Source of the DNA: Brevinematales bacterium
GTDB lineage: Bacteria; Spirochaetota; Brevinematia; Brevinematales; Thermospiraceae
NCBI GenBank assembly: GCA_013177995.1
Contig: JABLXN010000001.1
Location: forward strand, 1-64,000
Direction: 5' to 3'
Length of the DNA: 64,000 nt
This document shows, piece after piece, positions 21,533-50,704 of this stretch (its first letter is position 1; each line of letters begins with the position of its first letter). Position numbers and translations under genes: made by a program. The notes beneath the pieces are model-generated. The model was given only the letters and a program-made list of their open reading frames with translations. It did not search any database and was not told the origin of the DNA.

Positions 21533-21732
21533 GAGACCTTTGCACGAATGTGCGAAGGTCTCAAGAAAGTAATAAAAAAACAAAAATGGCATAAAAATAT
21601 TCCTTGATGTAATAAATAAACTTGCTTTTTTGAATAAAACAGACACATAATCCCCTGTAAACAGAAAAAGCAGGGAAGAGGGGCATAGCCCCTGACCCAG
21701 AGAGGGAAAGAAAGCACACGTGCAGGGGTTTC
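21533..21732 (+). repeat. Interspersed hairpin element, copy A
   Basis: It starts with GAGACCTTTGCA (21533-21544), loop CGAATG, TGCGAAGGTCTC (21551-21562). An AT-rich stretch follows, then the conserved inner hairpin AGGGGC-ATA-GCCCCT (about 21679-21693), and it ends in CACACGTGCAGGGGTTTC. The ends are imperfect inverted repeats of each other. Homologous copies are at 38423-38646 and, inverted, at 50488-50704. The right end is 8 nt from the phoH -35 box. It encodes no supported protein. The flank 21447-21532 holds nothing recognisable. Confidence 0.85.
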
Positions 21733-21739
21733 AAGAAAA

Positions 21740-21768
21740 TTGCATTTTCCCCAAAAACATGCTACCAT
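21740..21768 (+). promoter_or_regulatory. Promoter of phoH, apparently leaderless
   Basis: TTGCAT (21740-21745), 17-nt spacer, TACCAT (21763-21768). The phoH ATG begins 6 nt after the -10, about where transcription should start, and no Shine-Dalgarno sequence lies before it. Confidence 0.65.
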
Positions 21769-21773
21769 AAGAC

Positions 21774-23096
21774 ATGGCAAAAAAGAAGAAAACGTTTATC
21801 CTTGATACCAACGTTGTGCTCTATGACCCTCGTGCTATCTTTTCTTTTCAGGAACATGAGGTCGTTATCCCCATCACTCTTTTGGAAGAAGTGGACAATT
21901 TCAAAAAGGGCAATGAAATTATCCACTTCAATGCCAGAGAATTCAGCCGTGAACTGGACAATCTTTTCAAGGATGTCCCTTTCAACAAACCCGCCAAACT
22001 GCCTTCCGGAGGAACCGTTCGTATCGATACCCATGTCCATCTTGATGATTCCATTCGCAAACTCTTCTGGGAAGATAAACCCGATCACCGCATCCTTGCC
22101 TGTGCCTATTATCTTGCCCAGGAAAAAGACCCATCCACAGTGATTATTGTGTCCAAAGATATCAACCTGCGCATGAAAGCAAGGGCCATTGGCCTCCTTG
22201 CCGAGGACTATGAAACAGGGAAAATCAAAAGTATCGAGGAACTCTATACAGGGAAACGTATTATTGAGAACGTTGATGAGACGCTTCTCTACACCCTTCA
22301 GAAAGAAAAAATACTTCCCCCTGAGTTTTTCTCCGTCAATCCCCCACCCATGCCAAATGAATTCTTCGTCCTCCGCAATCACCAGAAAAGTATCCTGGCC
22401 ACCTATTCCCCTTTTCTTCCAGGATGGCAACTCATTGAGAAGCACACCTGTTATGGGATTGCTCCCCGCAACGCTGAACAGGCCTTTGCTCTTCACGCCT
22501 TGACCGACCCAAATATCCAGCTGGTCACCCTTGCGGGCAAAGCCGGTACGGGAAAAACCCTCATGGCTTTAGCCGGGGCTCTCGCCTCATTTGGCATATA
22601 CAAACAGATCCTTTTAGCCAGGCCTATTATTCCCCTCTCCAATCGGGATATGGGGTTTCTGCCAGGCTCTATCGAAGAAAAACTCGATCCCTATATGCAA
22701 CCCCTCTATGATAACCTCGCTGTCATTCAGCACCAATTCAACGAAGGAAGCCACGAACTCGCCACCATCTCCAAAATGCTTGATAACGAAACCCTGAAGA
22801 TCACCCCTCTCGCCTACATTCGTGGCCGAAGCCTCTCCAAGCTCTACTTCATTGTTGATGAGGCCCAGAATCTCACCCCCCATGAGGTGAAAACCATCAT
22901 CACTCGCGCGGGGGAGGGAACCAAGATTGTCTTCACCGGTGATCCCTATCAGATCGACACCCCCTATCTTGATTCTCGAAGTAATGGACTTTCCTTTCTC
23001 ATCGATAGAATGAAAGGGGTATCGCTGTATGCCCATATTACCTTAGAGAAGGGTGAACGGTCCCTTCTTGCTGAAGTTGCCTCCAACCTGCTATAG
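21774..23096 (+). CDS. phoH: PhoH-family ATPase with N-terminal PIN domain (YlaK-like)
   Basis: The 440-residue cytoplasmic protein joins a PIN ribonuclease-like domain (residues 1-130) to a PhoH ATPase. The PIN part shows 'FILDTNVVLYDP', then 'EEVDNF', and 'IVSKDINLRMKA' with its acidic residues. The ATPase shows Walker A 'GKAGTGKTLM' near 254, Walker B 'FIVDEAQN' near 358, and 'FTGDPYQID'. This PIN-PhoH arrangement is widespread and is linked to RNA metabolism. The start is fixed by the family N-terminus, yet no ribosome-binding site precedes it; see the promoter entry. It is monocistronic. Confidence 0.9.
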   Translation: MAKKKKTFILDTNVVLYDPRAIFSFQEHEVVIPITLLEEVDNFKKGNEIIHFNAREFSRELDNLFKDVPFNKPAKLPSGGTVRIDTHVHLDDSIRKLFWEDKPDHRILACAYYLAQEKDPSTVIIVSKDINLRMKARAIGLLAEDYETGKIKSIEELYTGKRIIENVDETLLYTLQKEKILPPEFFSVNPPPMPNEFFVLRNHQKSILATYSPFLPGWQLIEKHTCYGIAPRNAEQAFALHALTDPNIQLVTLAGKAGTGKTLMALAGALASFGIYKQILLARPIIPLSNRDMGFLPGSIEEKLDPYMQPLYDNLAVIQHQFNEGSHELATISKMLDNETLKITPLAYIRGRSLSKLYFIVDEAQNLTPHEVKTIITRAGEGTKIVFTGDPYQIDTPYLDSRSNGLSFLIDRMKGVSLYAHITLEKGERSLLAEVASNLL

Positions 23097-23138
23097 GACT
23101 TTCGTTTTCTCTTCCCAGGACTTCTCCCCCATTTTTAT

Positions 23139-23167
23139 TTGACAGATAGTCCAAAGTATGTTATAAT
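23139..23167 (+). promoter_or_regulatory. Consensus promoter of rpsB-tsf
   Basis: TTGACA (23139-23144), exactly 17 nt, TATAAT (23162-23167): both hexamers match the sigma70 consensus, as expected for a highly expressed ribosomal operon. Confidence 0.95.
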
Positions 23168-23204
23168 CTTACACTAAAACTCCCAAAGAAAGAAAGGAGA
23201 GAGT

Positions 23205-24008
23205 ATGGCGAGTCTCATTTACCAGGAAAAAGAACTCATGAACGCCTTGCTTGAAGCAGGAGTGCATTTTGGCCATCAGACCAAGCGCTGGAATCCCAAG
23301 ATGAAGCCATTTATCTACACCAAACGAAATGGCATCTACATCATAGACCTGCGCCACACGATGGACATGCTTCAAAAGGCTTACCAGGCTGCCAAAGAGT
23401 TGGCTGCCAACGATGGTGTGATGCTGTTTGTAGGGACCAAGAAGCAGGCCCAAACCTCAATTCTTGAGGAAGCCACCCGCTGTAACATGCCTTACGTCAC
23501 CAAACGCTGGCTTGGAGGCACCCTTACCAACTTCAGCACCATCAAAAAGTCTATCGACAAGATGAAGAAACTCGAGGCAAAACTCGAGGCTGATCGTGCC
23601 AAGATGACCAAAAAAGAAGCCATTGATATTGAACGCACCATTGCCAAAATGAAGGGCTTCTATGAGGGCATCCGTGATATGAAAAGACTGCCCGATGCTT
23701 TGTGGGTGGTGGATGTGAAGCGAGAAATCAACGCTGTTCTTGAAGCCAGGTCCTTGGGTATCAAGGTCTTTGGTATTGCCGACACCAACTGTGATCCTGA
23801 TCTCCTGGATTATCCTGTTCCTGCAAACGATGATGCTATTCGTTCTGTGAAACTTATCACCTCGCTTATCGCTGATGCTATCATCGAAGGATCCACGATG
23901 GCTGCCAAGCAGGAAAGCCACATTGTCGAAGAAGAAGAGGAAGAAACAGAGGCTGTCAACGTCGAAGATGAATACGCCGATGTTGATGAAGACACTCTTG
24001 TAAAATAA
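23205..24008 (+). CDS. rpsB: 30S ribosomal protein S2
   Basis: The 267-residue product has the S2 signatures 'LLEAGVHFGHQTKRWNPKM', 'RNGIYIIDLRHT', 'FVGTKKQAQ' and 'VTKRWLGGTLTNF'. It helps bind S1 and mRNA on the small subunit. The C-terminus carries an acidic extension (EEEEEETEAVNVEDEYADVDED). AAGGAGAG precedes the ATG. It forms the usual operon with tsf (11-nt gap), driven by the consensus promoter at 23139. Confidence 0.98.
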   Translation: MASLIYQEKELMNALLEAGVHFGHQTKRWNPKMKPFIYTKRNGIYIIDLRHTMDMLQKAYQAAKELAANDGVMLFVGTKKQAQTSILEEATRCNMPYVTKRWLGGTLTNFSTIKKSIDKMKKLEAKLEADRAKMTKKEAIDIERTIAKMKGFYEGIRDMKRLPDALWVVDVKREINAVLEARSLGIKVFGIADTNCDPDLLDYPVPANDDAIRSVKLITSLIADAIIEGSTMAAKQESHIVEEEEEETEAVNVEDEYADVDEDTLVK

Positions 24009-24019
24009 GGAGCTACGAT

Positions 24020-24838
24020 ATGGAAATTTCCGCTGCTATGATAAAAGAAGTCCGGGAGAAAACCGGTGCTGGTATCGTGGATTGCAAACAGGCTCTGACC
24101 GAAACCAATGGAGATATTGCCAAGGCTGTAGAGATCCTCAAGAAGAAGGGTCTTGCCAAGGCAAGCAAGAAAGAGGGCCGTACCGCTGTTGAAGGTATTG
24201 TTATGGTCAAAACTGAGGGCAAAAAAGGCCTTCTTTTCCGCCTCAATTGTGAAACCGACTTCGTAGGCAAAACACCTGAGTTTAAGGCTTTTGCAGAAAA
24301 GATCATGGACCTTGTTTTTGCCAAATCATACCCATCGTCTGATACTCTCCCTGAGGATGTGGAACAGCTTCGCAAAGAAGCTATCGCTAACTTTGGGGAA
24401 AACATTCTCGTGGCCTGGAAATGGATTGAGGCAAAGGGAACACTCTATCCCTATGTTCACCTCAACAAAGTGGCCTCTATCACTGATTTTGGCAATCTCT
24501 CTGACAATGCCGAGGTCCAGGATGTAGCCAAAAAAATTGCCATGCAGATTACCTCTATGAATCCTATCTGTGTGTCTGTAGATACCCTGCCTGCCGATGT
24601 CCGTGCTGAAATGCAGAAAACCTTTGAGGAAGAAGCCCGGGCTACTGGCAAACCTGAAAAGGTGATAGAAAATATCGTCAAAGGAAAGTTTGAGAAGTAC
24701 TACGCTGAGGTTGTTCTCATGGAACAGCCCTTCATCTTTGATGAAGAGAAAAAGGTGAAAGACCTTTTCACTGAACTCAAGAAATCCACCGGTGTGGATC
24801 TCACTGTTCACCAGTTTATTCGCCTCTCTCTCCAGTAG
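24020..24838 (+). CDS. tsf: Translation elongation factor Ts
   Basis: The 272-residue guanine-nucleotide exchange factor for EF-Tu. It begins with the UBA-like domain ('VREKTGAGIVDCKQALTETNGDI', residues 8-34) and carries the 'CETDFVGKTPEF' motif (about 76-87) that contacts EF-Tu. The length is usual for the family. AGGAG precedes the start. Transcription from rpsB should stop at the hairpin 24848-24883. Confidence 0.97.
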   Translation: MEISAAMIKEVREKTGAGIVDCKQALTETNGDIAKAVEILKKKGLAKASKKEGRTAVEGIVMVKTEGKKGLLFRLNCETDFVGKTPEFKAFAEKIMDLVFAKSYPSSDTLPEDVEQLRKEAIANFGENILVAWKWIEAKGTLYPYVHLNKVASITDFGNLSDNAEVQDVAKKIAMQITSMNPICVSVDTLPADVRAEMQKTFEEEARATGKPEKVIENIVKGKFEKYYAEVVLMEQPFIFDEEKKVKDLFTELKKSTGVDLTVHQFIRLSLQ

Positions 24839-24847
24839 ATAAACGAG

Positions 24848-24883
24848 ACGGCTGTTCTGATGAAAAGGGACAGCCGTTTTTTT
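24848..24883 (+). terminator. Terminator of rpsB-tsf
   Basis: ACGGCTGT (24848-24855) pairs with ACAGCCGT (24870-24877), followed by seven T. A TATAAT at 24883-24888 directly after it could be the -10 for pyrH, with a weak ATGAAA -35 (24860-24865) lying in the terminator loop. Confidence 0.85.
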
Positions 24884-24929
24884 ATAATCATGGGGTGCGA
24901 TACAGAAAATCCTTGAGAAGGGGTTATCT

Positions 24930-25652
24930 ATGGCCTTACCAAAATACAAAAGGGTTCTTTTGAAGATCAGTGGAGAGGTATTGGGTGGAAAAACGGGTGG
25001 ACTTGACTATGAGGCTATCAACAATGTCGCTTCCCAGATTGCCAGTGCAGCTCAAACGGGCTGCGAACTAGCCCTTGTGGTTGGTGGAGGCAATATCATT
25101 CGTGGGGTTGATGCCCAGAATTTTGGGGTGGCAAGAACCACAGCCGATTATATGGGGATGTTAGCCACGGTTATCAACTCCCTTGCCCTCCAGGCAGTTC
25201 TTGAAGACCGCTATAATCTCCAGACACGGGTTCAGTCAGCTATCAAGGTTTCTTCGGTGGCAGAGGACTTTATCCGACGTCGTGCCATCCGCCACCTTGA
25301 AAAATCCCGTATTGTCATCTTTGCCGCCGGGACAGGCAACCCCTACTTTTCCACCGATACCGCGGCTGTGCTTCGAGCTATCGAGATCCAGGCTAACCTG
25401 ATGATCAAAGCCACCAAGGTAGATGGCGTCTATGACAAAGACCCCAAAAAATATGCCGACGCCAAACGTTTTGAGGATATCTCCTACCGTGAAGTATTAG
25501 AGAGACGACTCCAGGTCATGGACAGCACCGCTATTGCCCTCTGTATGGACAATAACCTTCCCATCATGGTGCTCAATATCTTTGAACCAGGCCATATTGT
25601 GGATGCCATCATGGGAAAACCTGTAGGTACCCTGATCCACGCAGGAGAATAA
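24930..25652 (+). CDS. pyrH: Uridylate kinase (UMP kinase)
   Basis: The 240-residue amino-acid-kinase-fold enzyme phosphorylates UMP to UDP. Visible motifs are '[13 protein letters not shown]' (9-21), '[13 protein letters not shown]' (47-59), '[19 protein letters not shown]' (about 131-149) and '[17 protein letters not shown]'. The length matches bacterial PyrH. It follows rpsB-tsf, a common bacterial order (frr is absent), and precedes rsmD by 2 nt, so pyrH-rsmD-tsaB look co-transcribed. Confidence 0.97.
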
Positions 25653-25654
25653 CC

Positions 25655-26194
25655 ATGCACATCACCACAGGAACACTCAAAGGGAAAACCCTTCTCACAC
25701 CTACCAAGGGCATCAGACCCACGGCAGAACGAGTAAGACAGGCCCTCATGAATTCCTTAGGACCCAGGTTAGAGGGAGCATACTTTCTCGACCTCTTCTG
25801 TGGAACAGGTTCTGTAGGGATTGAAGCCCTCAGCCAGGGAGCAGGGTTTGTCTGTTTTGTGGAAAAAGCCGAACGAAACTATATCTTTCTCAAACAAAAC
25901 CTCACCACACTGGGTATTGACAAAAGCCTCTACAAAACCATCAAAACCAATATCTTCACCATGAAGCCAGAACAGTTTGAAATGACCTTTGATATTGTTT
26001 TTGCTGATCCCTTCTATGAGGACATCAAGGATGGCTTTCCGCTCATTCACCGTCTTGTGTGGAGTGTTCTCAAACCTGATGGCATCTTCATCTGTGAACA
26101 CGGAACCAGAGACGATCTTTCCCACTTCCCCGGCTATCAGGAAACCAAATCCTACGGGGATAGCCAGCTCTCCTTTTTTGTGAGGAAAGCGTGA
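25655..26194 (+). CDS. rsmD: 16S rRNA (guanine966-N2)-methyltransferase
   Basis: The 179-residue SAM-dependent methyltransferase of the RsmD family. The N-terminal 'GTLKGKTLLTP...GIRPTAERVRQALMN' and SAM loop 'LDLFCGTGSVGIEALSQGA' (45-63) are clear. The catalytic motif reads DPFY (118-121) where most family members have DPPY; Phe in the second variable position is unusual, though the essential Asp and aromatic residue remain. It overlaps tsaB by 4 nt (GTGA). Confidence 0.92.
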   Translation: MHITTGTLKGKTLLTPTKGIRPTAERVRQALMNSLGPRLEGAYFLDLFCGTGSVGIEALSQGAGFVCFVEKAERNYIFLKQNLTTLGIDKSLYKTIKTNIFTMKPEQFEMTFDIVFADPFYEDIKDGFPLIHRLVWSVLKPDGIFICEHGTRDDLSHFPGYQETKSYGDSQLSFFVRKA

Positions 26195-26889
26195 AGGTTC
26201 TCTCCTTTGACACCTCTCACCCAAGGCGAACCGTACTCAATCTCACATGGGAGAAAGAAAACGCTTCCCTTCTTTTGGATATCAGTTCCAGTCAGCAGGA
26301 CAAGCTTCTTGCCAGCATTGACCACCTTCTCACCACTATAGGCGCCTCCATAGACAAACTGGACGACATCGTGGTAGGAATCGGCCCTGGTTCATTCACA
26401 GGCCTTCGGATAGGGCTTTCCCTTGCCAAGGGTTTTGCCTGGGCAAAATCCATCCCGCTTCATGCCGTCTCCTCACTTGAAGCCCTCGCCCTTTCTTTCC
26501 CCTGGGAATGTCTTCCCGAAGCTACGGTTGTAGCCACCACTGATGCCCGGATGAAAAAACTCTACGCTTGTATCTACCAGGCAAAAAAGAAAATCCTTCC
26601 CGAAACAGATATCTCTCCCGAAGAATTGATACAGATGCTTTCTTCCTACGGGGGACCCTTCTGGTTTGTTGGAGATAACCCTTATCTCTCCCTTTTTAGA
26701 GAAAAACTTTCTCATACAACGCTCTCTTCTCAGAACCTCTGGATACAACCAGAAGTTCTGAGAGATCACGGTCTTTCTACACCCGCCCTCTCCCACGATG
26801 AGATACTTGCCCTTGAGCCACTCTATCTACGAAAAAGCGAAGCCGAAAACAAAAAAAACTCTACCACACCTTCCGACGAAGCTCGATAG
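26191..26889 (+). CDS. tsaB: tRNA threonylcarbamoyladenosine biosynthesis protein TsaB
   Basis: The 232-residue ASKHA-fold protein partners TsaD and TsaE in making t6A in tRNA. It begins 'VLSFDTSHPRRTVLNL', has 'DDIVVGIGPGSFTGLRIGLSLAKGFAWA' (about 58-85) and 'SSLEALA', all typical. The GTG start overlaps the rsmD stop. The last 29 nt overlap the convergent DUF362 gene on the other strand, so no terminator separates them. Confidence 0.92.
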   Translation: MKVLSFDTSHPRRTVLNLTWEKENASLLLDISSSQQDKLLASIDHLLTTIGASIDKLDDIVVGIGPGSFTGLRIGLSLAKGFAWAKSIPLHAVSSLEALALSFPWECLPEATVVATTDARMKKLYACIYQAKKKILPETDISPEELIQMLSSYGGPFWFVGDNPYLSLFREKLSHTTLSSQNLWIQPEVLRDHGLSTPALSHDEILALEPLYLRKSEAENKKNSTTPSDEAR

Positions 26890-27985
26890 CCTCCACCGGG
26901 CATATCTCATGACAACAGAAACATCGAATACAGCGTTGATAATTGATAGAAACAAACTTCTTGCCTTTTTTTTCCTTCCAGGAAAGTGCCTCAGCTGAAC
27001 ATATCTGAAGACATCGACCACATCGAATACATTTCTCATGAAGAAACACAGGCCTTGGAACAAGAAGATTTCTAGCGAGCACAAAAAGCCAGGGAAATCT
27101 CTCCCGAATAAATCCCGTATCCGAAACCTCTTTTACCAGCACAAAATGGTCAGGTTTCACCTCTTCCCAGTTCACTCCCTCAAGACGAATACTTTCTCTA
27201 TAACCCTTCTCCCTATCTTCGACGGCCTGTCTCAGGATAGGAATCTGATCCAGTTGATAACCAATCAATTCCGCGGCTACTACATCAAGAGACAGGGTAT
27301 CCAGAGAAGCCAAAAGAAGTCCTACCTCTTTGGGATCACCTCCCTGGGGTCCCTCTCCCTCCATGGCCACAATCGCATCCATGAGACTCATCACAGGGTT
27401 TACCATTTCGTAGAGATCCACTATCATGCGTGCAAATCGTTCCCTCTCGGGAAACTGAAGATGAAAACGAGACTTCTGAAGTCCCTGAACAAGCCCAAAA
27501 AGATTTTTGATAGCCCCAGTATAAAACATCTGCGTATGTGTCTTCAGCTTTGGAAGAGAAATCACCATATCATTTTCTACAAACGCCCTCACTACCTCAA
27601 AGCGTCTCACCAGCTTTCCCTTGGGATTTTCCACAACCACCGTCTCTTTGAAATTGGCAGGCCTTACCCCATAACGACGAAGAACCTCATCAAGCCCTGT
27701 TTTTTTCATCACCGAGATCATATCCTCAATCGCTGGAGAATCCCCCACCTCAACATCAAACCCACCGTCCTTGAGCACGCGTATCACCGCTTCCACCACC
27801 ACGGGGTGAGTCGTCACAGCCTTTTCCGGCGCCTGTGAAGCAAGGAGATTGGGCTTCACCAGTACCCTTTTTCCTCTCTGTGAAAGAATCTTCAAAAAAT
27901 TTCCTTGAGCAAAGAGATCCTCTACAGCCTGAAAGACCGCCTTTGTCTCGTAGGACAGGACCCTTTTTCCATACACCTGTGACAT
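26861..27985 (-). CDS. DUF362 protein with two 4Fe-4S clusters
   Basis: The 374-residue protein has the DUF362 core ('VLVKPNLLASQAPEKAVTTHPVVVEAVI' near 42-70, 'VGDSPAI', 'ISLPKLKTHTQMFYTGAIKNLFGLVQG'). A C-terminal ferredoxin domain has two CxxCxxCxxxC motifs ('CIRCGRCLQIC' and 'CIRCFCCHEIC', about 318-365). Proteins of this type are iron-sulphur redox proteins of unknown substrate. It is the last gene of the aroF-tyrA-cmk-ispH operon, 8 nt after ispH; a redox link to the 4Fe-4S enzyme IspH is possible but speculative. Its 3' end overlaps tsaB. Confidence 0.88.
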   Translation of the reverse strand: MSQVYGKRVLSYETKAVFQAVEDLFAQGNFLKILSQRGKRVLVKPNLLASQAPEKAVTTHPVVVEAVIRVLKDGGFDVEVGDSPAIEDMISVMKKTGLDEVLRRYGVRPANFKETVVVENPKGKLVRRFEVVRAFVENDMVISLPKLKTHTQMFYTGAIKNLFGLVQGLQKSRFHLQFPERERFARMIVDLYEMVNPVMSLMDAIVAMEGEGPQGGDPKEVGLLLASLDTLSLDVVAAELIGYQLDQIPILRQAVEDREKGYRESIRLEGVNWEEVKPDHFVLVKEVSDTGFIRERFPWLFVLARNLLVPRPVFLHEKCIRCGRCLQICSAEALSWKEKKGKKFVSINYQRCIRCFCCHEICPVEAIELRRKVW

Positions 27986-27993
27986 ACGCGCTC

Positions 27994-28830
27994 CTACAAA
28001 TTCTCTAAAAAGTGAACCGCTTCCTGAATAACCTCATCAGGGGTAGAGGCCCCAGCGGTAACTCCCACCACCCGATACTTTTTGATTTCTTCTACAGGCA
28101 ATTCGGAAGCCCTTTCCACAAGATAAGAAGGCTTCAACACCTGACAGATCTCATAGAGCCGACGGGTATTTGAGCTTTTTTTACCCCCAAGAACCACCAC
28201 AGCCTCCACCTGGGCCGCCAGTTCTTTAGCCGCCCGTTGTCTTCGCCGGGTAGAAGGACAGATCGTATTATACACAAAAATCTCCTGCCCCTCCTTGATG
28301 AAAGAACAAGCAATACGGGCAAACTTCTCCTCTTCAAGCGTCGTTTGAGAAAGAATCACCGCCTTTTGAGGAAAATCAAAATCCTCTGGATTGAACGTTC
28401 GATAGTCAAGGACCTTCACCAGCCCATTGAGATCGGCCGTAGCCGCTATAACCTCAGGATGTTCTGGTTCCCCCACAAGATACACAGAAACATCGGGCAA
28501 ACGCTTTCTCTCCTGCAATATAATCTTTGAAATATGCCTCACAAAAGCACAGGTGCCATCCACAATCTCTCGCCCCTCTGCCCGGGCCTCATCAATACAG
28601 GACTGGGGGAGTCCATGAGCACGCACAATTCCCACCCCCTCCTTCACCTCTTGCGGGCTTTCAACAAATTCTACCCCGCGCCCTTTATAACGCTCAATTA
28701 CCACCGGATTATGAATAATCTCCCCAATAGAGTACACTTTTTTTCCTGTAGCCAGATGTTCATCCAGGAGTTTCAAAGCCCGCCGCACCCCAAAACAAAA
28801 CCCATACTCCTTGGCCAAAACAACCTTCAC
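27994..28830 (-). CDS. ispH: 4-hydroxy-3-methylbut-2-enyl diphosphate reductase
   Basis: The 278-residue 4Fe-4S enzyme makes IPP and DMAPP in the last step of the MEP isoprenoid pathway. The three cluster cysteines are visible: Cys12 ('GFCFGVRRA'), Cys94 ('DGTCAFV') and Cys191 ('NTICPSTRRRQ'). His40 ('GEIIHNP'), His72 ('VRAHG') and His124 ('EPEHPEV') are also in place. It overlaps cmk by 4 nt. There is no S1 (rpsA) fusion or neighbour, which often accompanies cmk-ispH elsewhere. Confidence 0.96.
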   Translation of the reverse strand: MKVVLAKEYGFCFGVRRALKLLDEHLATGKKVYSIGEIIHNPVVIERYKGRGVEFVESPQEVKEGVGIVRAHGLPQSCIDEARAEGREIVDGTCAFVRHISKIILQERKRLPDVSVYLVGEPEHPEVIAATADLNGLVKVLDYRTFNPEDFDFPQKAVILSQTTLEEEKFARIACSFIKEGQEIFVYNTICPSTRRRQRAAKELAAQVEAVVVLGGKKSSNTRRLYEICQVLKPSYLVERASELPVEEIKKYRVVGVTAGASTPDEVIQEAVHFLENL

Positions 28831-30331: not shown

Positions 30332-30343
30332 GCCTACCTCGTT

Positions 30344-31363: not shown

Positions 31364-31397
31364 CGTTTTTCCTCCGCTTTTCTCTCAGTTTTCCCCG

Positions 31398-31426: not shown

Positions 31427-31463
31427 AAATAAATGAAAACTTTGCTTTCACGCCCTTTACCCC

Positions 31464-32319: not shown

Positions 32320-32348
32320 AGTATATCACAAAGAGAAAGGAAATGCAA
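32320..32348 (-). promoter_or_regulatory. Promoter of the PHP gene
   Basis: On the minus strand TTGCAT (32348-32343), 17-nt spacer, TATACT (32325-32320). The solo hairpin at 32353-32382 begins 5 nt upstream of the -35. Confidence 0.85.
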
Positions 32349-32352
32349 TTTT

Positions 32353-32382
32353 GAGACCTTTGCACATTCGTGCAAAAATCTC
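32353..32382 (-). repeat. Solo 30-nt hairpin of the interspersed element
   Basis: GAGACCTTTGCA (32353-32364), loop CATTCG, TGCAAAAATCTC (32371-32382). The arms are complementary apart from two mismatched positions. It matches the first hairpin of elements A to C but nothing of their inner part follows. Confidence 0.8.
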
Positions 32383-32407
32383 ATTTTAGGAATGCAGAAA
32401 AAGACCC

Positions 32408-34153: not shown

Positions 34154-34155
34154 AC

Positions 34156-38358: not shown

Positions 38359-38388
38359 GAGCCCTTTGCATGAATGTGCAAAGGGCTC
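38359..38388. repeat. Extra 30-nt hairpin next to element B
   Basis: GAGCCCTTTGCA (38359-38370), loop TGAATG, TGCAAAGGGCTC (38377-38388): a perfect 12-bp stem. At its fifth base pair outward it has C-G/G-C where the other copies have A-T (GAGCCC versus GAGACC), a compensated change. An AT-rich run like that of element B follows, then element B begins at 38423, so this looks like a partial tandem copy. Confidence 0.85.
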
Positions 38389-38422
38389 AAAAAAATAATA
38401 AAAAAACAAAAAGTGGTATAAA

Positions 38423-38646
38423 GAGACCTTTGCACAAATGTGCAAAGGTCTCAAGAAAGTGGTAAAAAAACAAAAAATAGTATAAAAATGTTCCTTAACG
38501 TAATAAATAAAACTATTCCTTTGAACAAAAAAAGACAAATAAGCCCTTGTAAATGGAAAAAGCGAGGTTTCAGGGGCGTAGCCCCTGACCCAGACAGGGG
38601 AAGAAAACACCCGTGCAAGGGTCTCATTCTTATGAATGTGGAACGA
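38423..38646 (+). repeat. Interspersed hairpin element, copy B
   Basis: It starts with GAGACCTTTGCA (38423-38434), loop CAAATG, TGCAAAGGTCTC (38441-38452). About 115 nt of AT-rich sequence follow, then the inner hairpin AGGGGC-GTA-GCCCCT (about 38572-38586), CACCCGTGCAAGGGTCTC ending at 38625, and a short palindrome CATTCTTATGAATG. The conserved block runs on to GGAACGAC (38646). Copy C shares the whole length. The 38284-38700 interval holds no supported protein gene. Confidence 0.87.
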
Positions 38647-38700
38647 CCTCCCACTTTTCTCGACCACAAAATACCCTGAAAAAATCCCTTTCCATTTCTC

Positions 38701-41063: not shown

Positions 41064-41075
41064 TTACCTCTATCT

Positions 41076-41345
41076 TCAAACACCTTTCTTTTCTCCCCTA
41101 TCCCCCTTTTTCACCTCAATGCCCAAAAGGGCAAGAGATCTCACAAATTCCTCACCATCAAAATCCCTTTCAGCTTGAAAAGAAATCCTGTCCCTTTCAA
41201 ACACCACATCCCGCACTCCCCCCATCGCGTCTAACAAAGCCGCCACTTCATGCCGACAAAAACTTCCTTTCACTTCCCAGACATAGCGTTTTGTCCTCAC
41301 CACCACCGAAGAAGAGCGCCTTTTGCCGCAACCGCACCCTCTCAT
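41076..41345 (-). CDS. Small Cys-rich-N-terminus protein with HMA-like fold
   Basis: The 89-residue product overlaps the histidine kinase stop by 4 nt (ATGA), so it belongs to the same operon. The N-terminus is MRGCGCGKRR. The rest (residues 20-80) follows the beta-alpha-beta-beta-alpha-beta pattern of heavy-metal-associated domains ('YVWEVKGSFCRHEVAALLDAM', 'GGVRDVVFERDRISFQAE'). The CxxC metal loop is replaced by FCRHE. It may be a ferredoxin-like ligand-binding or structural domain rather than a metal chaperone. The assignment is by pattern only. Confidence 0.6.
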   Translation of the reverse strand: MRGCGCGKRRSSSVVVRTKRYVWEVKGSFCRHEVAALLDAMGGVRDVVFERDRISFQAERDFDGEEFVRSLALLGIEVKKGDRGEKKGV

Positions 41346-43786: not shown

Positions 43787-44849
43787 GTCCCACCTTCCAC
43801 TGGTTACTTACCACTTGTATCAGATAAAGTGTTCTGGTAGCATCCCCATACTGATCAAGATACACCGCTGACTGGAGCCCGGCAAAAGTCTTAGGGAAAA
43901 GAGAAAACCATTTCTGACGCAAATGCCCTCGACTCTGCCGATAGAGGTCTACGGCCAACAAAAGACTCTCATATCCATACACAAAACCAAACGAAGGTTC
44001 CTGTTGATAGTTGGCTACAAACCGCTCATAAAGCTGACGATACACCGCATTGGTATGAGAGACCACAAAGTGCTGGACTGCTTTTGTCCCCTCTCCATAT
44101 TTCCCGCTCCACCGGAGAAAATACCTGTCCATAGCCCACCCAGCCACATACACCTGAAGACCAGAGAGCTTCTCTTTCACCTTCTGGACAAGAAGCCCCC
44201 CCTCATCCCCTGGGGTCACTAGCACAAGAGCTTGAGGTTTCCAGAGCAGGATTTTCTTCACCACCTCATCTAAAGAACCCTTCACGGCTGAATGATAGGA
44301 CAGAACTTGACAGAGGAGCCCTCTTCTTTGCCAGAAGTTGGTAAACTCCCCTATCCACGCCCGAGCATACGGCTCATTGGCTTCCGTGTACACCAGAAGA
44401 GGTTTTGACACCCCATCCTCCGCCATGAGATAGAGAATACTTCGTATCTCCTGAAGATTCTCGGGAACAATTCTTGCCATATAATCCCTCTGCCCACTCC
44501 AGAGAGAAGAACTCACCGTCGGTGGAATAATCGGAACCCGCAAGCTATTGGCCACAGGTATCACCTTCATTCCCGTAGCTGAATCAAACGGCCCAAGAAT
44601 CACATCTGGACCATAGGCCGCAATTTCCTGCGAAAGCTTTTCTTCATCAAGGCTATGCACATTGAGAACACGATAGACAATTTTTTGAGAAGGGGAAAGA
44701 TCCGCTATAGCCCAGAGAATACCTTCCCTCCCTTCCACATGCAGGGTTGAGGTAGCCCCTGAAAAATCCCCCACAATCAACACCCTCATTGGTCGAGAAC
44801 ACCCCACCACTGCCACAAGCAAAAAAAGCCGGCGGCTCGCCATATCCAC
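43776..44849 (-). CDS. Periplasmic ligand-binding lipoprotein (LivJ-type)
   Basis: The 357-residue product has a lipobox-like 'LVAVVGCSRP' (Cys at about 17), so it is probably lipid-anchored. The body is a type 1 periplasmic binding fold: 'RVLIVGDFSG', 'YGPDVILGPFDSATGMKVIPVAN', 'RVPIIPPTVSSSLWSG', 'ALVLVTPGDEGGLLVQKVKE' and 'SFGFVYGYESLLLAVDLY'. This fits the LivJ/AmiC group that binds amino acids or amides. There is no ABC permease nearby; instead it is translationally overlapped with a histidine kinase. The GTG start at 44849 follows GGAGG by ten bases. Confidence 0.85.
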   Translation of the reverse strand: MDMASRRLFLLVAVVGCSRPMRVLIVGDFSGATSTLHVEGREGILWAIADLSPSQKIVYRVLNVHSLDEEKLSQEIAAYGPDVILGPFDSATGMKVIPVANSLRVPIIPPTVSSSLWSGQRDYMARIVPENLQEIRSILYLMAEDGVSKPLLVYTEANEPYARAWIGEFTNFWQRRGLLCQVLSYHSAVKGSLDEVVKKILLWKPQALVLVTPGDEGGLLVQKVKEKLSGLQVYVAGWAMDRYFLRWSGKYGEGTKAVQHFVVSHTNAVYRQLYERFVANYQQEPSFGFVYGYESLLLAVDLYRQSRGHLRQKWFSLFPKTFAGLQSAVYLDQYGDATRTLYLIQVVSNQWKVGRER

Positions 44850-44881
44850 TTCATAACCGCCTCCTCTCTTTCTTCACTCAC

Positions 44882-44910
44882 ATTATAGACCAAACCACTT
44901 CTTTTTGCAA
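44882..44910 (-). promoter_or_regulatory. Promoter of the binding protein / kinase operon
   Basis: On the minus strand TTGCAA (44910-44905), 17-nt spacer, TATAAT (44887-44882). It lies between cvpA and the lipoprotein gene, so the sensory operon is transcribed on its own. Confidence 0.88.
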
Positions 44911-44917
44911 ATCTTTT

Positions 44918-45385
44918 CTATCCCAACCGACTAAAAAAGGCTATCACTACCTGAGTCCATCTCCCAAGAAGTATGCCAAAGGGAAATTCCTGACGAATCC
45001 AATCGTGGGGAAGAAAGGGAAGCCTGGCTAAAAGAATAAACACAAGCCCCACAAGAAAACCAAATTGGAAAAGCCCCAGAAGTCCACCAAGAAGCGAATC
45101 AAGCCACTCTAACTCAAGAAACTCCAGCACGTCCTCAAGCCAATACGAAAGCCTCTTCAGAGCAAAATATCCCCCCGTAAATACCACCACAAACACAATC
45201 CAGAACCACACCTGCCGATACCCTTCAGGTAGCCAGGAAACGACAAGTTTTCCTAAAAGAATCCCGCCAGCAAGCCCCACCACAATAGCCAAAAGGGTAA
45301 AAAGCATATTGATAAGCCCCCGGCTAAAACCATACACAAACCCTACCACAAGAAAAACCACGATCAGAAGATCATAATAAGGCAT
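44918..45385 (-). CDS. cvpA: CvpA-family membrane protein
   Basis: The 155-residue protein has four predicted membrane helices and the CvpA start pattern 'YYDLLIVVFLVVGFVYGFSRGLI'. It continues with 'GLAGGILLGKLVVSWLP' and 'LLGGLLGLFQFGFLVGLVFILLA'. Members are linked to colicin V export and, more generally, to envelope maintenance; the reaction is unknown. It lies 69 nt downstream of the DUF2723-like gene with no terminator seen between. Confidence 0.82.
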   Translation of the reverse strand: MPYYDLLIVVFLVVGFVYGFSRGLINMLFTLLAIVVGLAGGILLGKLVVSWLPEGYRQVWFWIVFVVVFTGGYFALKRLSYWLEDVLEFLELEWLDSLLGGLLGLFQFGFLVGLVFILLARLPFLPHDWIRQEFPFGILLGRWTQVVIAFFSRLG

Positions 45386-45454
45386 CTCTTTTACCCTTTA
45401 CGGCTTTTGTTCCCTACCAACCATTTCCCTCTTTCTGCCTCTCTTCTCAAAACC

Positions 45455-47332
45455 CTACGGTTGACTGAGAATCATATCTGCCACACGAAGCTGTTGGGCA
45501 AAGCGTGCCTGAAGCTGAAGACTCGTCTCACAGAGAGACTTAAAACGCCTGAGATACTCCTTGGCGCGGGAAGTATCTCCCGACTGATAGGCCAGAATAC
45601 CAAGATTATAGGCAACCTCAGGAACAGGTTGGCGAGCAAAATCCTCATGTTGCAAGATCCTATCCCCAAAAAGATAAGCCTTTGCTGTCCAGTCTGGCAC
45701 CTGCATGGCTATCTGCCAGGCAAAAAGAAGCATCTGGTAGTCGCTCTCTAACGCAAGAATATCCATGATATCACCAGCCAGCTTTGCATACGGGACATAG
45801 TTCGCTAACTGGGTGCGCTGAATGAGCTGAATCAGGATCATTTGCTTCATCTCCGCAGAAAAACTCTCCGGTTTTTGCAAAAGTTCCCTCGCTTTTGCCT
45901 CAAGATCAAAAGCCTGTGGCAAGCGCATGTCCTTGAGTACCGTATCCAACATATCCGTATACTGTTTCCACTGGAGAAACTCCTGATACGATTGATACGC
46001 AGGATTTACAAACCCTCCCATATCACGTGGTGGGGCTTCCTTGAGTTTGGACTCCGTCCGGAGAGAGAGTGTTCTTCGAAGATATCTCACATTTTCCTCA
46101 AGAAGCGGAAGAAGGGTATTCTTTCTCTCTGGATACCGATAAATCGTCCGAAGGAGAAGTTGATTATAGGTCATGGAGATTCCTATCAAAGTACGAGAGT
46201 TGTGATAATAAGAAAGAAGCTTTCGAAAACGTGGCCAGGCCTCTTCTGAGAGATCCTCGCCAACTTCATTTTCCACAAAAGCCACCAGGGCCCCTATAAT
46301 CGACACACTATCATAACCATAATACATAGCCTCCCTGTAGACTTCCTTGGTCTTTTGCCAGGCATTGGTGATTTCCATGGCAATCTTCTCTCGCACCTCG
46401 GGACGAGTTTCTCGTTGATACATCGTCTGAAGACTACGAATGCGCTCTCGATAGATATCCCCCATCTGCATGTCATAACCAATGGCAATCTCTCTTGTCA
46501 TTCGATCAAGATAGGGGAGATTGGGAATATTTTGCCATCGTATTCTATAACGAGAAAAATAATCCGCTAATGGCAAAGGCGTACTTCTCACAAAGACAAT
46601 CCTCTCTCCCTCAAGTTTCACATATCCCTGCGAAGCAAGACTTTTCGCCTGATCAAGGACATAACCACGATCCACAGGGCGACGGAGCCAGTCGGAAAAG
46701 AGATACTGTGCCTCTCCAACACTCACCGACCCACGAATCGAAAGGTCATCAAGGAGTCTATGAGCAATGGGTTCCACCTTGTACATAATCCCGTACCGAC
46801 GATAGGTATAATCCCCAAGCCTCCAAACCTCTGGTCGTTGCCAGGTGAGATACACAGGGCGCCTCCCCTGCCAGTAAGGAATAAAATAGGGATCAAGATT
46901 CACACGGGGATCGTTGATGTTAGAGATAGGGACATAAAAAGGCTCAAGCCCGGCAAAAATATTGCTATCCACCAGGTCCTTGCGTCGTGCAATAGCCCGT
47001 GGATCACTATAAAGCATAAGACCATAGATCTTTTTGAAAACATTCCCCATCTGGTCATAGGCAGAAAGATCCGGTCTTATCTTTTCTGCATAGATAAAAT
47101 AGAGAGAAGAAAACACCTGGTTATCTCCCCCTTCTGTCATATAGACAGAATCCATTTCAGCAGATGCCATGAGATTTTTGCCATAATCATGGTTGAGATA
47201 GTCTAAATGATGATCAGCGGTTTTATAGTTACTCACATAAGGGAAGAGACCCAACCCCAAGACAAGGATAATCCCTATTCCCCGTAGAAGCTTCTGACGA
47301 AACAATTCCTTTTCTTCAATAAGCATCTGCAT
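45455..47332 (-). CDS. DUF2723-like protein lacking most of its membrane domain
   Basis: The start at 47332 is chosen because GGGAGG is six bases upstream and a terminator hairpin (47356-47385) lies between it and the ferredoxin gene; the longer open frame would run through that hairpin. The 625-residue product has one membrane segment (about 17-33). Then 'NHDYGKNLMASAEMDSVYMTEGGDNQVFSSLYFIYAEKIRPDL' resembles, by memory, the region that follows the membrane helices in DUF2723 (protein O-mannosyltransferase-like) proteins. The remainder is helical, TPR-like near 555-600 ('VAYNLGILAYQSGDTSRAKEYLRRF'). The catalytic multi-helix part is missing, so activity is doubtful. The family call is tentative. 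Confidence 0.6.
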   Translation of the reverse strand: MQMLIEEKELFRQKLLRGIGIILVLGLGLFPYVSNYKTADHHLDYLNHDYGKNLMASAEMDSVYMTEGGDNQVFSSLYFIYAEKIRPDLSAYDQMGNVFKKIYGLMLYSDPRAIARRKDLVDSNIFAGLEPFYVPISNINDPRVNLDPYFIPYWQGRRPVYLTWQRPEVWRLGDYTYRRYGIMYKVEPIAHRLLDDLSIRGSVSVGEAQYLFSDWLRRPVDRGYVLDQAKSLASQGYVKLEGERIVFVRSTPLPLADYFSRYRIRWQNIPNLPYLDRMTREIAIGYDMQMGDIYRERIRSLQTMYQRETRPEVREKIAMEITNAWQKTKEVYREAMYYGYDSVSIIGALVAFVENEVGEDLSEEAWPRFRKLLSYYHNSRTLIGISMTYNQLLLRTIYRYPERKNTLLPLLEENVRYLRRTLSLRTESKLKEAPPRDMGGFVNPAYQSYQEFLQWKQYTDMLDTVLKDMRLPQAFDLEAKARELLQKPESFSAEMKQMILIQLIQRTQLANYVPYAKLAGDIMDILALESDYQMLLFAWQIAMQVPDWTAKAYLFGDRILQHEDFARQPVPEVAYNLGILAYQSGDTSRAKEYLRRFKSLCETSLQLQARFAQQLRVADMILSQP

Positions 47333-47355
47333 ATTCTGCCTCCCACTCACAGGAT

Positions 47356-47385
47356 AAAAATAAAAACGAGGGGGCTTTTGCCCCC
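47356..47385 (-). terminator. Terminator of the ferredoxin operon
   Basis: On the minus strand GGGGGC (47385-47380), AAAA loop, GCCCCC (47375-47370), followed by a T-rich tract (complement of 47356-47366). It lies just past the ferredoxin stop. Confidence 0.85.
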
Positions 47386-47397
47386 AATTACTCACCC

Positions 47398-47568
47398 TTA
47401 TGCCTCGATGGCATCAAACGCACAGGTAGCCGCACACGCGCCACAATCAATACAGCTCCCGGCATCAATCACACGCTTTCCACCCTGTTCGCTGATAGCC
47501 GACACAGGACATGCTGGTTCACAGGCACCACAGTTGGTACACTTACTGGCAATAATCTTATATGCCAT
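47398..47568 (-). CDS. Small 2[4Fe-4S] ferredoxin
   Basis: The 56-residue protein is read directly as [10 protein letters not shown], then two CxxCxxCxxxC(P) cluster motifs with Cys10, 13, 16, 20 and Cys39, 42, 45, 49. It is a clostridial-type low-potential electron carrier. AAAGGAGG lies five bases before the ATG, a very strong ribosome-binding site. In the second motif the last Cys is followed by Ala (ATCAFD) instead of Pro. It is 24 nt after gatA and is closed by the terminator at 47356. It is too short for many gene callers. Confidence 0.95.
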
Positions 47569-47592
47569 TTATGGCCTCCTTTGAAAAATATT

Positions 47593-49023
47593 CTATCTGA
47601 GATGCTCAATGCCGTACGCGACATCAAGCAATTTCTGTTCCCCAAGAGCCGGACCCATAAGTTGCATCCCCAGCGGAAGTCCCTCCTTCGTCCACCCAGA
47701 AGGAAGAGAAAGAGCCGGAATACCGGCAAGGTTAGCTGAAATCGTATAGATATCGGAAAGGTACATAGCAATCGGATCACTCACCTTCTCCCCAATGCCA
47801 AAGGGTGGAGTTGGTGTAGTAGGACCCAAAATCACATCCACCTTCTCAAAAGCCTTCTGAAAATCCTCTTTGATAAGTGTCCGAACCTTGAGAGCCTTGA
47901 GATAATAGGCATCATAGTAGCCGGCCGAAAGCACATAGGTTCCTAACATGATACGACGCTTCACTTCCGGGCCAAAACCCTCTGTTCGTGTTTTGACATA
48001 CATTTCCGAAAGGGTTGAAGCCTGCGCCCGATAGCCATACTTTACCCCATCATAGCGTTCAAGGTTGGAACTTGCCTCGGCTGTCGCCACAACATAATAC
48101 GTGGGAACCGCATACTCACTGTGGGGAAGAGAAATCTCCGCCACCCTGGCTCCAGCCGCCTCAAGTTTTCGAATCATCTCGTCAAGGTTTTCTTTCACCC
48201 GTGGATCCAGCCCCTCGATGATAAATTCCTTTGGCACACCGATCTTCACCCCTTTGAGATTTCCCTCCAGCTTCACCGCTGGTGTATGCTCAAGACTTGT
48301 GGAATCCTTTGGGTCGTGTCCCGCCATGGCTTCATAAACCCAGGCTGCATCCTCAACTGTTTTCGCAAGCGGCCCTATCTGATCAAGCGAAGACGCAAAT
48401 GCCACAAGCCCATAACGAGAAACCGTCCCGTAGGTGGGTTTCAGTCCCACACAGCCACAAAAAGCGGCTGGTTGACGAATAGACCCCCCTGTATCACTGC
48501 CTAAGGCAACAGGAGCAAGCTTTCCCCCCACGGCTGCCGCTGATCCCCCCGACGACCCACCGGGAACCCGCTTGCGATCAAAGGGATTACGGGTGATGCC
48601 ATAGGCCGATGTCTCTGTCGATGAACCCATGGCAAATTCATCCATATTGGTTTTGCCAAGCACTACCATCCCATGCTGACGCACAAGCCTCTCGACTACC
48701 GTAGCATCATAACTGGCTTTGTACCCCTTGAGAATACGAGAACTACAGGTGGTCTCATATCCCTTCACATTGATGTTATCCTTGATAGCAATAGGAATTC
48801 CTGTGAGTTTTGTTGCCTCTCCACGAGCCCATTTTTTATCTGCTTCCTTCGCCATAGCAAGAGCTTCATCAGCCAAAACAGAAACATACGCATGGATAGG
48901 CTCAGGTGATGATTCGTCCTTCTCGATAGCCTCGAGATAAGCCTTGGTAATCTCTTCAGAAGAGACTTCCTTCTTGGCCAACGCCTCACTGAGCTCACGT
49001 ACCGATAAATCACGGATATCCAT
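47593..49023 (-). CDS. gatA: Asp/Glu-tRNA amidotransferase subunit A
   Basis: The 476-residue amidase subunit releases ammonia from glutamine to convert Glu-tRNA(Gln) to Gln-tRNA(Gln). The Ser-cis-Ser-Lys triad is visible: Lys81 ('IPIAIKDNI'), the Ser near 157 ('[13 protein letters not shown]') and Ser181 ('[14 protein letters not shown]'). The length is normal. It follows plsY by 9 nt. GatB and GatC are not in the window, although gatC usually lies just upstream of gatA, so the complex is encoded at more than one locus. Confidence 0.95.
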
Positions 49024-49032
49024 CTCTTCCTC

Positions 49033-49710
49033 CTATTCCTTTACCCCAAAAAGTTGAGCTATATTCTTGCGATGCTTTACGATAACAAGAAGGGCAATAA
49101 TCACTGTGATAATTTTCAATGATAACCTCCCCGGCTCAATTAGCCACACACTCACAGGAAGGGCAACAGCCGCCAAAACCGAAGAAAGCCCCACGCCCTT
49201 CTGAAGGTTTTTGAAAAACCCAAGCTTTCTTTCCTCTCCATTGGTGAGCACAACAACAGCGCGAAAAGTCAATAATACCACCAAAAAGACCCCAAGGGCT
49301 ACAAGAAGCTCCACAGGAGCCAAAAAGGCAAATACCCCTGCCGATGTGGCTACTCCCTTTCCTCCCTTGAAGCCAAGATACACAGGATACAGATGCCCGA
49401 GAATCGCCATCACCCCTATCACGATGAGCATCAGATCCTTTTCAAAAATAAAACCACTGCCCCCAAAAAGAACTTTTTCCACCATAGGATAAAGCAAAAC
49501 CGGAAGCCCCCCTTTCAAAAAGTCCAAAATAAACACCGGAACAAACCCACCCCAGAAACCAAAAACCCGGCTTACATTGGTGGCTCCTATGTTTTTTGAT
49601 CCTACCGTACGAATATCCACTCCCCTGAGAAGCCCATACACCAGCCCAAAAGGAATAGCCCCCACTAAATAGGTGAGAAGAAGATATACCCCATAGACAA
49701 CATACGACAT
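49033..49710 (-). CDS. plsY: Acyl-phosphate:glycerol-3-phosphate acyltransferase
   Basis: The 225-residue inner-membrane enzyme makes lysophosphatidic acid, the first step of phospholipid synthesis. Family motifs are 'GAIPFGLVYG', 'VGSKNIGATNVSRVFG' (about 36-51) and 'GHLYPVYLGFKGGKGVATSAG' (about 105-125), with a glycine-rich active-site loop. About six or seven membrane segments are predicted. It sits between the exbB-like gene and gatA. A charged stretch near 158-172 ('NGEERKLGFFKNLQKG') replaces part of the usual loop. Confidence 0.94.
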   Translation of the reverse strand: MSYVVYGVYLLLTYLVGAIPFGLVYGLLRGVDIRTVGSKNIGATNVSRVFGFWGGFVPVFILDFLKGGLPVLLYPMVEKVLFGGSGFIFEKDLMLIVIGVMAILGHLYPVYLGFKGGKGVATSAGVFAFLAPVELLVALGVFLVVLLTFRAVVVLTNGEERKLGFFKNLQKGVGLSSVLAAVALPVSVWLIEPGRLSLKIITVIIALLVIVKHRKNIAQLFGVKE

Positions 49711-49743
49711 CGCTTTGTCTCCTTTTGTTTTCGTTTCAAAAGA

Positions 49744-50385
49744 TTACCACTTTGGTAGAGAAGACGACGTATCACCCTTGGCACTCTTCAGAAGCTGGAT
49801 CAATTCTGTGGTCGAAATCTCAATATCGGAAATGATATTCTCCACCTGAGCCACAATATAGTTATAAGCCACCTGAGCCGGAATAGCCACAATAAGCCCA
49901 TACGCTGTGGTAATCAGCGCCTGCGCAATACCACCAATCAGTTTGGAAGGGTTATTCATCCCCTGAGTGGAAAGAACCGTACTGGAGATAATCATGCCTA
50001 ACACCGTTCCCAAAAGCCCTAACAGAGTGGCCACACTCGTGACGGTAGCCAGTACAGGAATATTGCGATGAAGCTTGGGAATCTCATACACAGCGGCATC
50101 CTCCATGGCCTTTTCTATCTCTTCCCGGCTTTTGTTGTACTGGGTAAGCCCTGCCCGAATGATATTGGCTGCCAACCCAGGATAATTCTCACAAACCGCA
50201 ATAGCCTCATCAATCCGATGACCTTTGAGTTTCTCTCGCATTTTTTCCTGTATAATCCTCGCATTCTGTCTCACCTGCCTGAAGAAAAGCACACGCTCAA
50301 TAAAAACCGCAAGCCCGATAATCGACACAAGAAGAATAAAATACATGACCGGTCCACCCTGCTGGAAGTACTCAAGGACCACCAT
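49744..50385 (-). CDS. MotA/TolQ/ExbB proton channel family protein
   Basis: The start at 50385 follows AAGGAGG; an upstream continuation is AT-rich noise. A TATACT-like -10 lies at 50426-50431. The 213-residue protein has an N-terminal membrane segment (about 13-32). 'VCENYPGLAANIIRAGL' follows in the cytoplasmic loop, then two helices with 'LATVTSVATLLGLLGTVLGMI' (about 113-133) and 'ALITTAYGLIVAIPAQVAYNYI' (about 153-174), the proton-path core of TolQ/ExbB. No ExbD/TolR partner is encoded next to it. It heads a run with plsY, gatA and ferredoxin. Confidence 0.9.
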   Translation of the reverse strand: MVVLEYFQQGGPVMYFILLVSIIGLAVFIERVLFFRQVRQNARIIQEKMREKLKGHRIDEAIAVCENYPGLAANIIRAGLTQYNKSREEIEKAMEDAAVYEIPKLHRNIPVLATVTSVATLLGLLGTVLGMIISSTVLSTQGMNNPSKLIGGIAQALITTAYGLIVAIPAQVAYNYIVAQVENIISDIEISTTELIQLLKSAKGDTSSSLPKW

Positions 50386-50487
50386 CGGCTCCTCCTTTTT
50401 TGCACTGAAATATTTCTCAAACTGTAGTATAACGACAAAGAAAAAAAATTTCATCTTTTTTTGAGAAAAAAGGAGTTTATCTCTGTT

Positions 50488-50704
50488 GTCGTTCCACATT
50501 CATAAGAATGAGACCCTTGTACGGGTGCTTTCTTGCCCTTTCTAGGTCAGGGGCTACGCCCCTCTTCCCCGTTTTTTCTGTTTACAAGGGCTTATTTGTC
50601 TTTTTTATTCAAAAAAGTAGAATTATTGATTACTGAAAGAAATATTTTTATACTACTTCTTTTATTACTTTTTAGAGACCTTCGCACATTCGTGCAAAGG
50701 TCTC
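50488..50704 (-). repeat. Interspersed hairpin element, copy C (inverted)
   Basis: Read on the minus strand it starts with GAGACCTTTGCA (50704-50693), loop CGAATG, TGCGAAGGTCTC (50686-50675), identical in hairpin to copy A. The AT-rich middle, inner AGGGGC-GTA-GCCCCT hairpin, CACCCGTACAAGGGTCTC, and trailing palindrome and GGAACGAC (to 50488) match copy B. The hairpin edge is 5 nt from the -35 of the promoter at 50710. The gap 50386-50709 holds no protein gene I can support. Confidence 0.87.

Follow-up and report, generated by a model that had tools for sequence, protein, structure and literature searches.

The first 64,000 nucleotides of the forward strand of contig JABLXN010000001.1 of a Brevinematales bacterium (the window; contig C1 of a source genome, G000, of 57 contigs and 2.38 Mb) contain five places occupied by all or part of a repeated, hairpin-bearing element of ~200 bp. 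This is very probably a miniature inverted-repeat transposable element (MITE), and the features of the window that concern it are the following.

21533-21732, + strand: full MITE copy A, 200 bp, hairpin at 21533-21562, edges without an exact 5-bp repeat
32348-32352: left 5-bp direct repeat ATTTT of the 32353 solo hairpin
32353-32382, - strand: solo hairpin, 30 bp, internal sequence absent within 300 bp
32383-32387: right 5-bp direct repeat ATTTT of the same solo hairpin
38359-38422, + strand: partial copy, 64 nt, directly before copy B, made up of the hairpin (with a compensated A-T to C-G pair) and 34 nt of internal sequence
38423-38625, + strand: full MITE copy B, 203 bp, hairpin at 38423-38452, edges without an exact 5-bp repeat
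38626-38647, + strand: 22 nt outside the MITE, directly next to copy B, from one end of a second element family
50488-50509, - strand: 22 nt outside the MITE, directly next to copy C, from an end of that second family
50510-50704, - strand: full MITE copy C, 195 bp, hairpin at 50675-50704, edges without an exact 5-bp repeat

All five places had been recognized in an initial annotation of the window, and they are confirmed here. The three full copies are 83-85% identical in pairwise comparison, and align with local scores of 117-130 compared with a maximum of 20 in 200 single-letter shuffles of one pair. The shared element stands, but it had been drawn too long, since the 22 nt at each of the two places listed above match the end of another family. 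The hairpin, previously described as a 12-bp stem with a 6-nt loop, folds as a 13-bp stem with a 4-nt loop, and the z-scores of the five window hairpins lie between -5.1 and -7.7. Both of the additional hairpins are present, yet that at 32353 is imperfect (-7.8 kcal/mol), and that at 38359 is simply the beginning of the element, cut off at the next copy. The same layout of a partial left end followed by a full copy is seen at a second place, G000:C18:11286, where a hairpin and 22-23 nt precede the next hairpin.

The MITE is bounded by the ends GAGACCTTTGCACG and CGTGCAAGGGTCTC, with one mismatch between the terminal inverted repeats. Its left end comprises the end sequence joined to its own inverse; that is, two ends are placed back to back, and together they form the 13-bp hairpin, with GAGACC/GGTCTC at the foot. 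Through this doubling the inner arm, GTGCRAAGGTCTC, almost repeats the right end, GTGCAAGGGTCTC, in direct orientation.

How common is the MITE in the genome? A search of the whole genome for the hairpin pattern GAGACCTTTGCACNNATGTGC with up to three mismatches gave 170 forward and 169 reverse matches (a single hairpin may match on both strands), and the reversed control gave 1 and 0. The further copies foreseen in the initial annotation are thus present in abundance. Our sample of 136 hairpins, in 123 merged stretches totalling 329 kb, is biased towards good matches, being taken from the heads of the pattern lists and from the best 40 of 217 candidates in a BLAST list. The right end is within reach for 112 of them, and 107 of these copies are 191-208 bp in length (the others being 111, 249, 256, 267 and 268 bp), so that they are too short to hold a transposase gene. 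In three of the 112 (C1 38359, C18 11286 and C45 42538) the copy is partial, and the right end is that of a neighbour. Among the 24 hairpins without a right end, twelve are followed by internal-like sequence, several of these at contig ends. Of the other twelve, three are preceded by inverted internal sequence and at one (C6 18667) internal sequence lies at a distance of 13-50 nt, so that eight clean solo hairpins remain. In the 268-bp copy, at G000:C5:38118, the right half of the internal sequence holds an insert of foreign DNA as well as a piece that is repeated.

Target-site duplication had been raised as a possible property of the element, and it is found. Among the 107 copies of length <230 bp with flanks of at least 12 nt, 59 have an exact 5-bp direct repeat at their outer edges, while shuffled pairings gave a mean of 1.8 and a maximum of 7. 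At least 4 of the 5 bp are repeated in 71 of the 107 (shuffle mean 10.3, maximum 20). Edge repeats of length 4 are also raised (12 copies, against 2.3 and a maximum of 7), but far below those of length 5, where there is a clear peak. The sites are mostly intergenic. The junction falls within an open frame of at least 200 codons for 6 of 63 copies with 450-nt flanks; for places chosen at random the figures are 67% (same stretches) and 77% (window). Longer repeats take the place of the 5 bp at two sites: at G000:C36:12995 20 nt of the left flank recur after the hairpin, and at G000:C7:44760 a full copy lies between the 14-nt repeats AAAAGAGAAATATC.

In a sister species, G001, the flanks of many copies lie together with no element between them; its protein corresponding to that next to copy A is 96% identical. 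The comparison took in 92 copies that have 300-nt flanks; for 36 of them the fetched part of G001 gave no match. Where there is an exact repeat and both flanks were mapped, the flanks are no more than 3 kb apart in G001 for 22 of 25 copies. Comparison of empty and filled sites, which had been suggested at the outset, is thus informative at the level of the flanks, but less so base by base: among seven sites aligned in this way C57_34281 is gapless through the junction and C8_27131 is fair, but four are weak. At the seventh, the solo hairpin at 32353, the G001 sequence reads through with an 8-nt gap at the junction.

The initial annotation had noted the absence of a transposase. This is true of the elements in the window, but a likely parent lies elsewhere in the genome, and a source with the same ends had indeed been proposed as something to seek. 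A 1366-bp insertion sequence at G000:C27:24319-25684 has 14-nt perfect inverted ends, GAGACCCTTGCACG, and encodes a 383-aa open frame that matches Pfam DDE_Tnp_1 (3.8e-34) and NCBIfam NF033581 (IS5) at 2.1e-84, above the cut-off. No second intact copy was found, and at C12:73968 a decayed remnant directly adjoins a MITE. The consensus of the MITE is identical to the C27 element over 17 nt at one end (the right end of the MITE), and at 14 of 15 nt at the other. As judged from these ends, the C27 insertion sequence is probably the parent, and its product the candidate transposase that moves the MITE.

Relatives of this enzyme are found more widely. The C27-type transposase is present in 29 of 247 genomes of the phylum, G000 included, and where the ends were sought at such loci those of L152, L156 and L157 were of TTAAGGG type, while the search at L153 gave nothing clear. 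Of six relatives in a plasmid collection, five have ends of the type seen in the C27 element, two of them with outer 5-bp repeats (ATATC and ATATA); in L185 (Rhizobium) a GAGACC-type end was not found. Transposase peptide patterns matched 51 stretches in genome_contigs, none of which was a relative by tblastn. Within G000 the DDE_Tnp_1 matches at C38 and C36 look like different elements and were set aside: G000:C38:3780-4283 belongs to another DDE_Tnp_1 transposase with a 456-aa frame, to which a fragment at C36:12043-12210, beside a MITE, is alike by eye.

We therefore regard the element, with a probability of about 0.9, as a non-autonomous miniature transposon moved by an IS5-family transposase acting in trans, in which solo hairpins arise by deletion and flipped loops by template switching. 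The resemblance to a MITE pointed out in the initial annotation is borne out by the terminal inverted repeats, 5-bp edge repeats, high copy number and mostly intergenic sites, together with flanks that adjoin in G001 and a transposase gene bounded by matching ends. An IS5-family DDE transposase, provided by an insertion sequence elsewhere in the genome, would recognize the outer ends GAGACCYTTGCACG, cut out or copy the element and join it to the target with 5-bp staggered cuts, giving the 5-bp duplications. The ends, the repeats, the gene and its matching ends are read directly from the genome, and from them we infer that the C27 transposase, or a lost sister, acts on the element. A second, inverted copy of the end at the left would have created the 13-bp hairpin, with its inner arm a direct repeat of the right end. 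Deletion between the direct repeats could then reduce a copy to a 30-bp solo hairpin, still flanked by the original target duplications, while template switching (or recombination) between the arms could make them alike and invert the loop; both steps are suggested by the patterns among the copies. The hairpin would thus be a transposase site together with mutational wear, and not a selected RNA or regulator.

Several observations weigh against this interpretation. The edges match at no more than 3 of 5 bp in 36 of the 107 copies, and the base-by-base empty sites are convincing in few of the seven tries. The C27 element and the MITE have only their ends in common, with nothing convincing inside, so that the MITE is no simple deletion derivative of the C27 copy; a lost relative of that element may be the actual mover. 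The edges of the C27 element itself lack an exact 5-bp repeat (4 of 5). Two of the solos, C18 5502 and C22 25640, also lack an exact repeat, in a small sample. Lastly, the tree on which the loop flips were counted (below) is poorly resolved: only 8 of 101 inner branches are starred, and the starred ones force only 4 changes.

The eight clean solos have no internal sequence within 300 bp. Six are flanked by an exact 5-bp repeat, namely C1 32353 (that of the window), C10 26909, C21 5321 (its repeat a T run), C45 27146, C54 36126 and C8 2049. Deletion between the two direct repeats predicts that part of the right end should be found in the 3′ arm of the solo. The right-end motif CAAGGG is present there in four of the eight (C18, C21, C45 and C8), compared with none of the 112 copies having a right end (p 9e-6); with a looser motif the numbers are 4 of 9 solos and 2 of 112 (p 2e-4). 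Searched for in the whole genome, the exact recombinant stem occurs at three places, in C19, C21 and C45, each a lone hairpin as judged from the flanks seen, with that of C19 lying between GAAAA repeats (by eye). The solo hairpins between 5-bp repeats thus probably come from deletion between direct repeats, in the manner of solo long terminal repeats.

The loop and stem of the hairpin have a further history. Loops were classified in 104 copies (185-215 bp with the usual internal start; two loops unclassified), and in 12 of them the loop is inverted relative to the right end, reading ATTC where the usual loop is GAAT or a near variant. A tree built from the internal sequence, with the hairpin excluded, requires 12 changes for the flips, which are unclustered (shuffle mean 11.7). 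Flipped copies have longer end branches (median 0.094 compared with 0.035, p 0.009) and more often a changed right end, with flips in 9 of 41 copies so changed compared with 3 of 63 (p 0.011). Their stems are more often perfect, in 11 of 12 compared with 40 of 90 others (p 0.004). These p-values are uncorrected for several tests. In 102 hairpins of 30 nt there are eight compensated pairs in seven copies, all still paired, where 0.63 would be expected under independence, together with 58 one-sided stem changes, of which 38 are one common wobble. The subset with an exact right end contains three flipped copies of 63, and five compensated. The inner AGGGGC-GCCCCT hairpin, with arms of 6 bp, has no inverted loop in any of the 104 copies, as expected if inversion needs longer arms. 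As described in PMC8604942, template switching in yeast inverted repeats yields homogenization of the arms and inversion of the spacer, the latter seen only with arms >9 bp, and the arms were perfect in 9 of 10 genes. The MITE is alike in its inverted loops and in arms made alike, with 11 of the 12 flips on perfect stems. The yeast data concern single genes across strains, whereas here there are many copies of one hairpin in one genome. As read from the copies, the flips and compensated stem changes point to template switching rather than selection on structure.

Could the hairpin have a life of its own? The solos might instead be minimal elements that were transposed by themselves, with each arm acting as an end: GAGACC terminates both arms, exact 5-bp repeats surround six of the eight, and half of the solos lack the right-end motif. 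The other half carry CAAGGG just as deletion predicts, the exact recombinant stem is found as a lone hairpin at all three of its places in the genome, and 30 bp hardly leaves room for two transposase-bound ends. We consider this origin of the solos unlikely, and slightly less likely still that a 30-bp hairpin of back-to-back ends is mobile alone by means of an IS5-type transposase making 5-bp duplications. Were it so, it would be among the smallest transposable elements known. It is improbable, too, that the hairpin is a selected RNA or DNA structure such as a terminator or riboregulator, with selection behind the compensated changes. Its stable fold, the eight compensated pairs and the intergenic location are what such a function would lead one to expect, but the compensated pairs are scattered over seven copies alongside recurrent loop inversion, the inner hairpin of 6-bp arms has no flips, A rather than T follows the hairpin on the element strand, and Rfam gave no match in the window at gathering score. 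The change at 38359 that had been taken as a sign of selection on structure is indeed a compensated A-T to C-G at pair 4, but in the light of these pairs and flips the selection is unsupported; selection in scattered single copies is a weaker reading than template switching. REP elements have a GTAG or CGTC tag at the foot of the hairpin, and a REP/BIME-type hairpin moved by RAYT, a Y1 tyrosine transposase, would likewise be short, of high copy number and mostly intergenic. In the MITE the foot is GAGACC/GGTCTC, with 5-bp repeats and DDE-type ends, and Y1_Tnp (PF01797) was not found in the genome, while the control gave matches in 5 of 14 genomes. This origin is hard to credit at all.

A different question is raised by the missing 5-bp repeats of the window copies. 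Between positions 1 and 58600 the window has breakpoints relative to G001 near 15.6, 21.5, 38.4, 39.7, 41.1 and 50.6 kb. Three of the six coincide with the full MITE sites, none of which has an exact repeat; the 32353 solo is inside a collinear block. The copies might therefore be sites of ectopic recombination that rearrange the chromosome, those of the window without 5-bp repeats being chimeras of two insertions. The wider sample gives this little encouragement. The flanks are together in G001 for 25 of the 37 copies in which 4 or 5 of the 5 bp are repeated, and for 9 of the 19 others (p 0.16, not significant), and with both flanks mapped for the 22 of 25 with an exact repeat and 9 of 14 others (p 0.11). 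They are together in 11 of 22 intergenic controls, and were so at 113 of 139 random places in an earlier, smaller run. We hold rearrangement through the copies to be a tentative and rather doubtful suggestion. In the same comparison window positions 7862-13751 have no G001 match among the best 40 of 53 candidates, with both sides collinear on G001:C32, and could be an island.

Is the MITE found in other species? In 59 relatives besides G000 there was a match on one strand in 10 genomes, compared with 7 for the reversed control, so that these matches are background; the multiplicity that the initial annotation led one to look for is seen in the genome itself, but does not extend to these relatives. 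The match in G001, a palindrome (AAGCCCTTTGCAC...), is accompanied by no other part of the element, and was rejected. In collections from which records of the source or very near genomes may be absent, copy B had no match in phage or plasmid records, the exact hairpin pattern had none in viral contigs, and it had one in genome_contigs, in a metagenome-assembled genome of Thiotrichaceae. The latter (L187:128-157), from an unrelated bacterium, shares the 13-bp stem but has a different loop, with no 5-bp repeat by eye. No paper on the MITE was found by title in the open-access literature.

The claim that the repeat belongs to no named family holds for the whole element in those phage and plasmid records, but its ends are nearly those of published IS5-family elements, and its 12-nt ends are reported for BrickBuilt (PMC4596501). 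According to that paper, BrickBuilt is an IS5-type MITE of Porphyromonas gingivalis, with the 12-nt ends GAGACCTTTGCA and TGCAAAGGTCTC in BrickBuilt_4. It is alike in these ends, in the proposal of IS5-family sources, in lacking a transposase remnant and in having one copy with an empty site in other strains. It is described there with 19 copies, inner 23-nt tandem repeats and unclear target duplications, whereas for our MITE the sample contains 112 copies, the 5-bp repeats are clear and the hairpin consists of a pair of back-to-back ends. The same paper ties the ATR of Neisseria meningitidis, present 19 times per genome, to ISNme1 with the IS5-type ends GAGACCTTTGCAAAA; by description this too is alike, a parent being proposed from its ends. 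ISAba23, an IS5-like element of an Acinetobacter plasmid, has one end, GAGACCTTTGCACGAA, that is identical to the opening 16 nt of the most frequent left end of the MITE, and its transposase is 35.6% identical to the C27 enzyme. Unlike the MITE it is autonomous and about 1.25 kb long, and no 5-bp repeat was seen at the place examined. The copy number is high but not unheard of: 10-20 MITE copies are given as typical for bacteria (PMC4596501), and ERIC reaches 711 (PMC10969869).

Prokaryotic MITEs with IS5-type ends are thus already known. As far as our searches go, what is new is the family itself, its back-to-back left end, the route to solos and the record of loop flips within one genome. 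With more than 100 copies of one hairpin in a single genome, the numbers of loop flips, arm corrections and deletions can be set against those of ordinary substitutions, and compensated changes in a repeat hairpin need not imply selection on structure. The doubled left end would also offer a simple route to lone transposon ends, the origin of which is called unclear in a paper on insertion sequences (PMC3004938).

The 22-nt sequences that abut copies B and C belong to a second mobile family. It is represented by a 1370-bp element at G000:C54:85544-86913 (in L017), with the ends GTCGTTCCACAT and a 409-aa rve-type transposase that matches NCBIfam ISNCY_2 (2.5e-37) and IS481 (4.5e-35), both below cut-off. 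Stretches of 590-1160 bp have the same ends without the 409-aa gene, and some of them hold the MITE:

C3:36218-37377, second-family stretch without the gene
C7:14551-15710, second-family stretch without the gene
C18:22825-23792, second-family stretch without the gene
C21:5365-6333, second-family stretch without the gene
C11:29817-30565, second-family stretch without the gene
C56:52986-53575, second-family stretch without the gene

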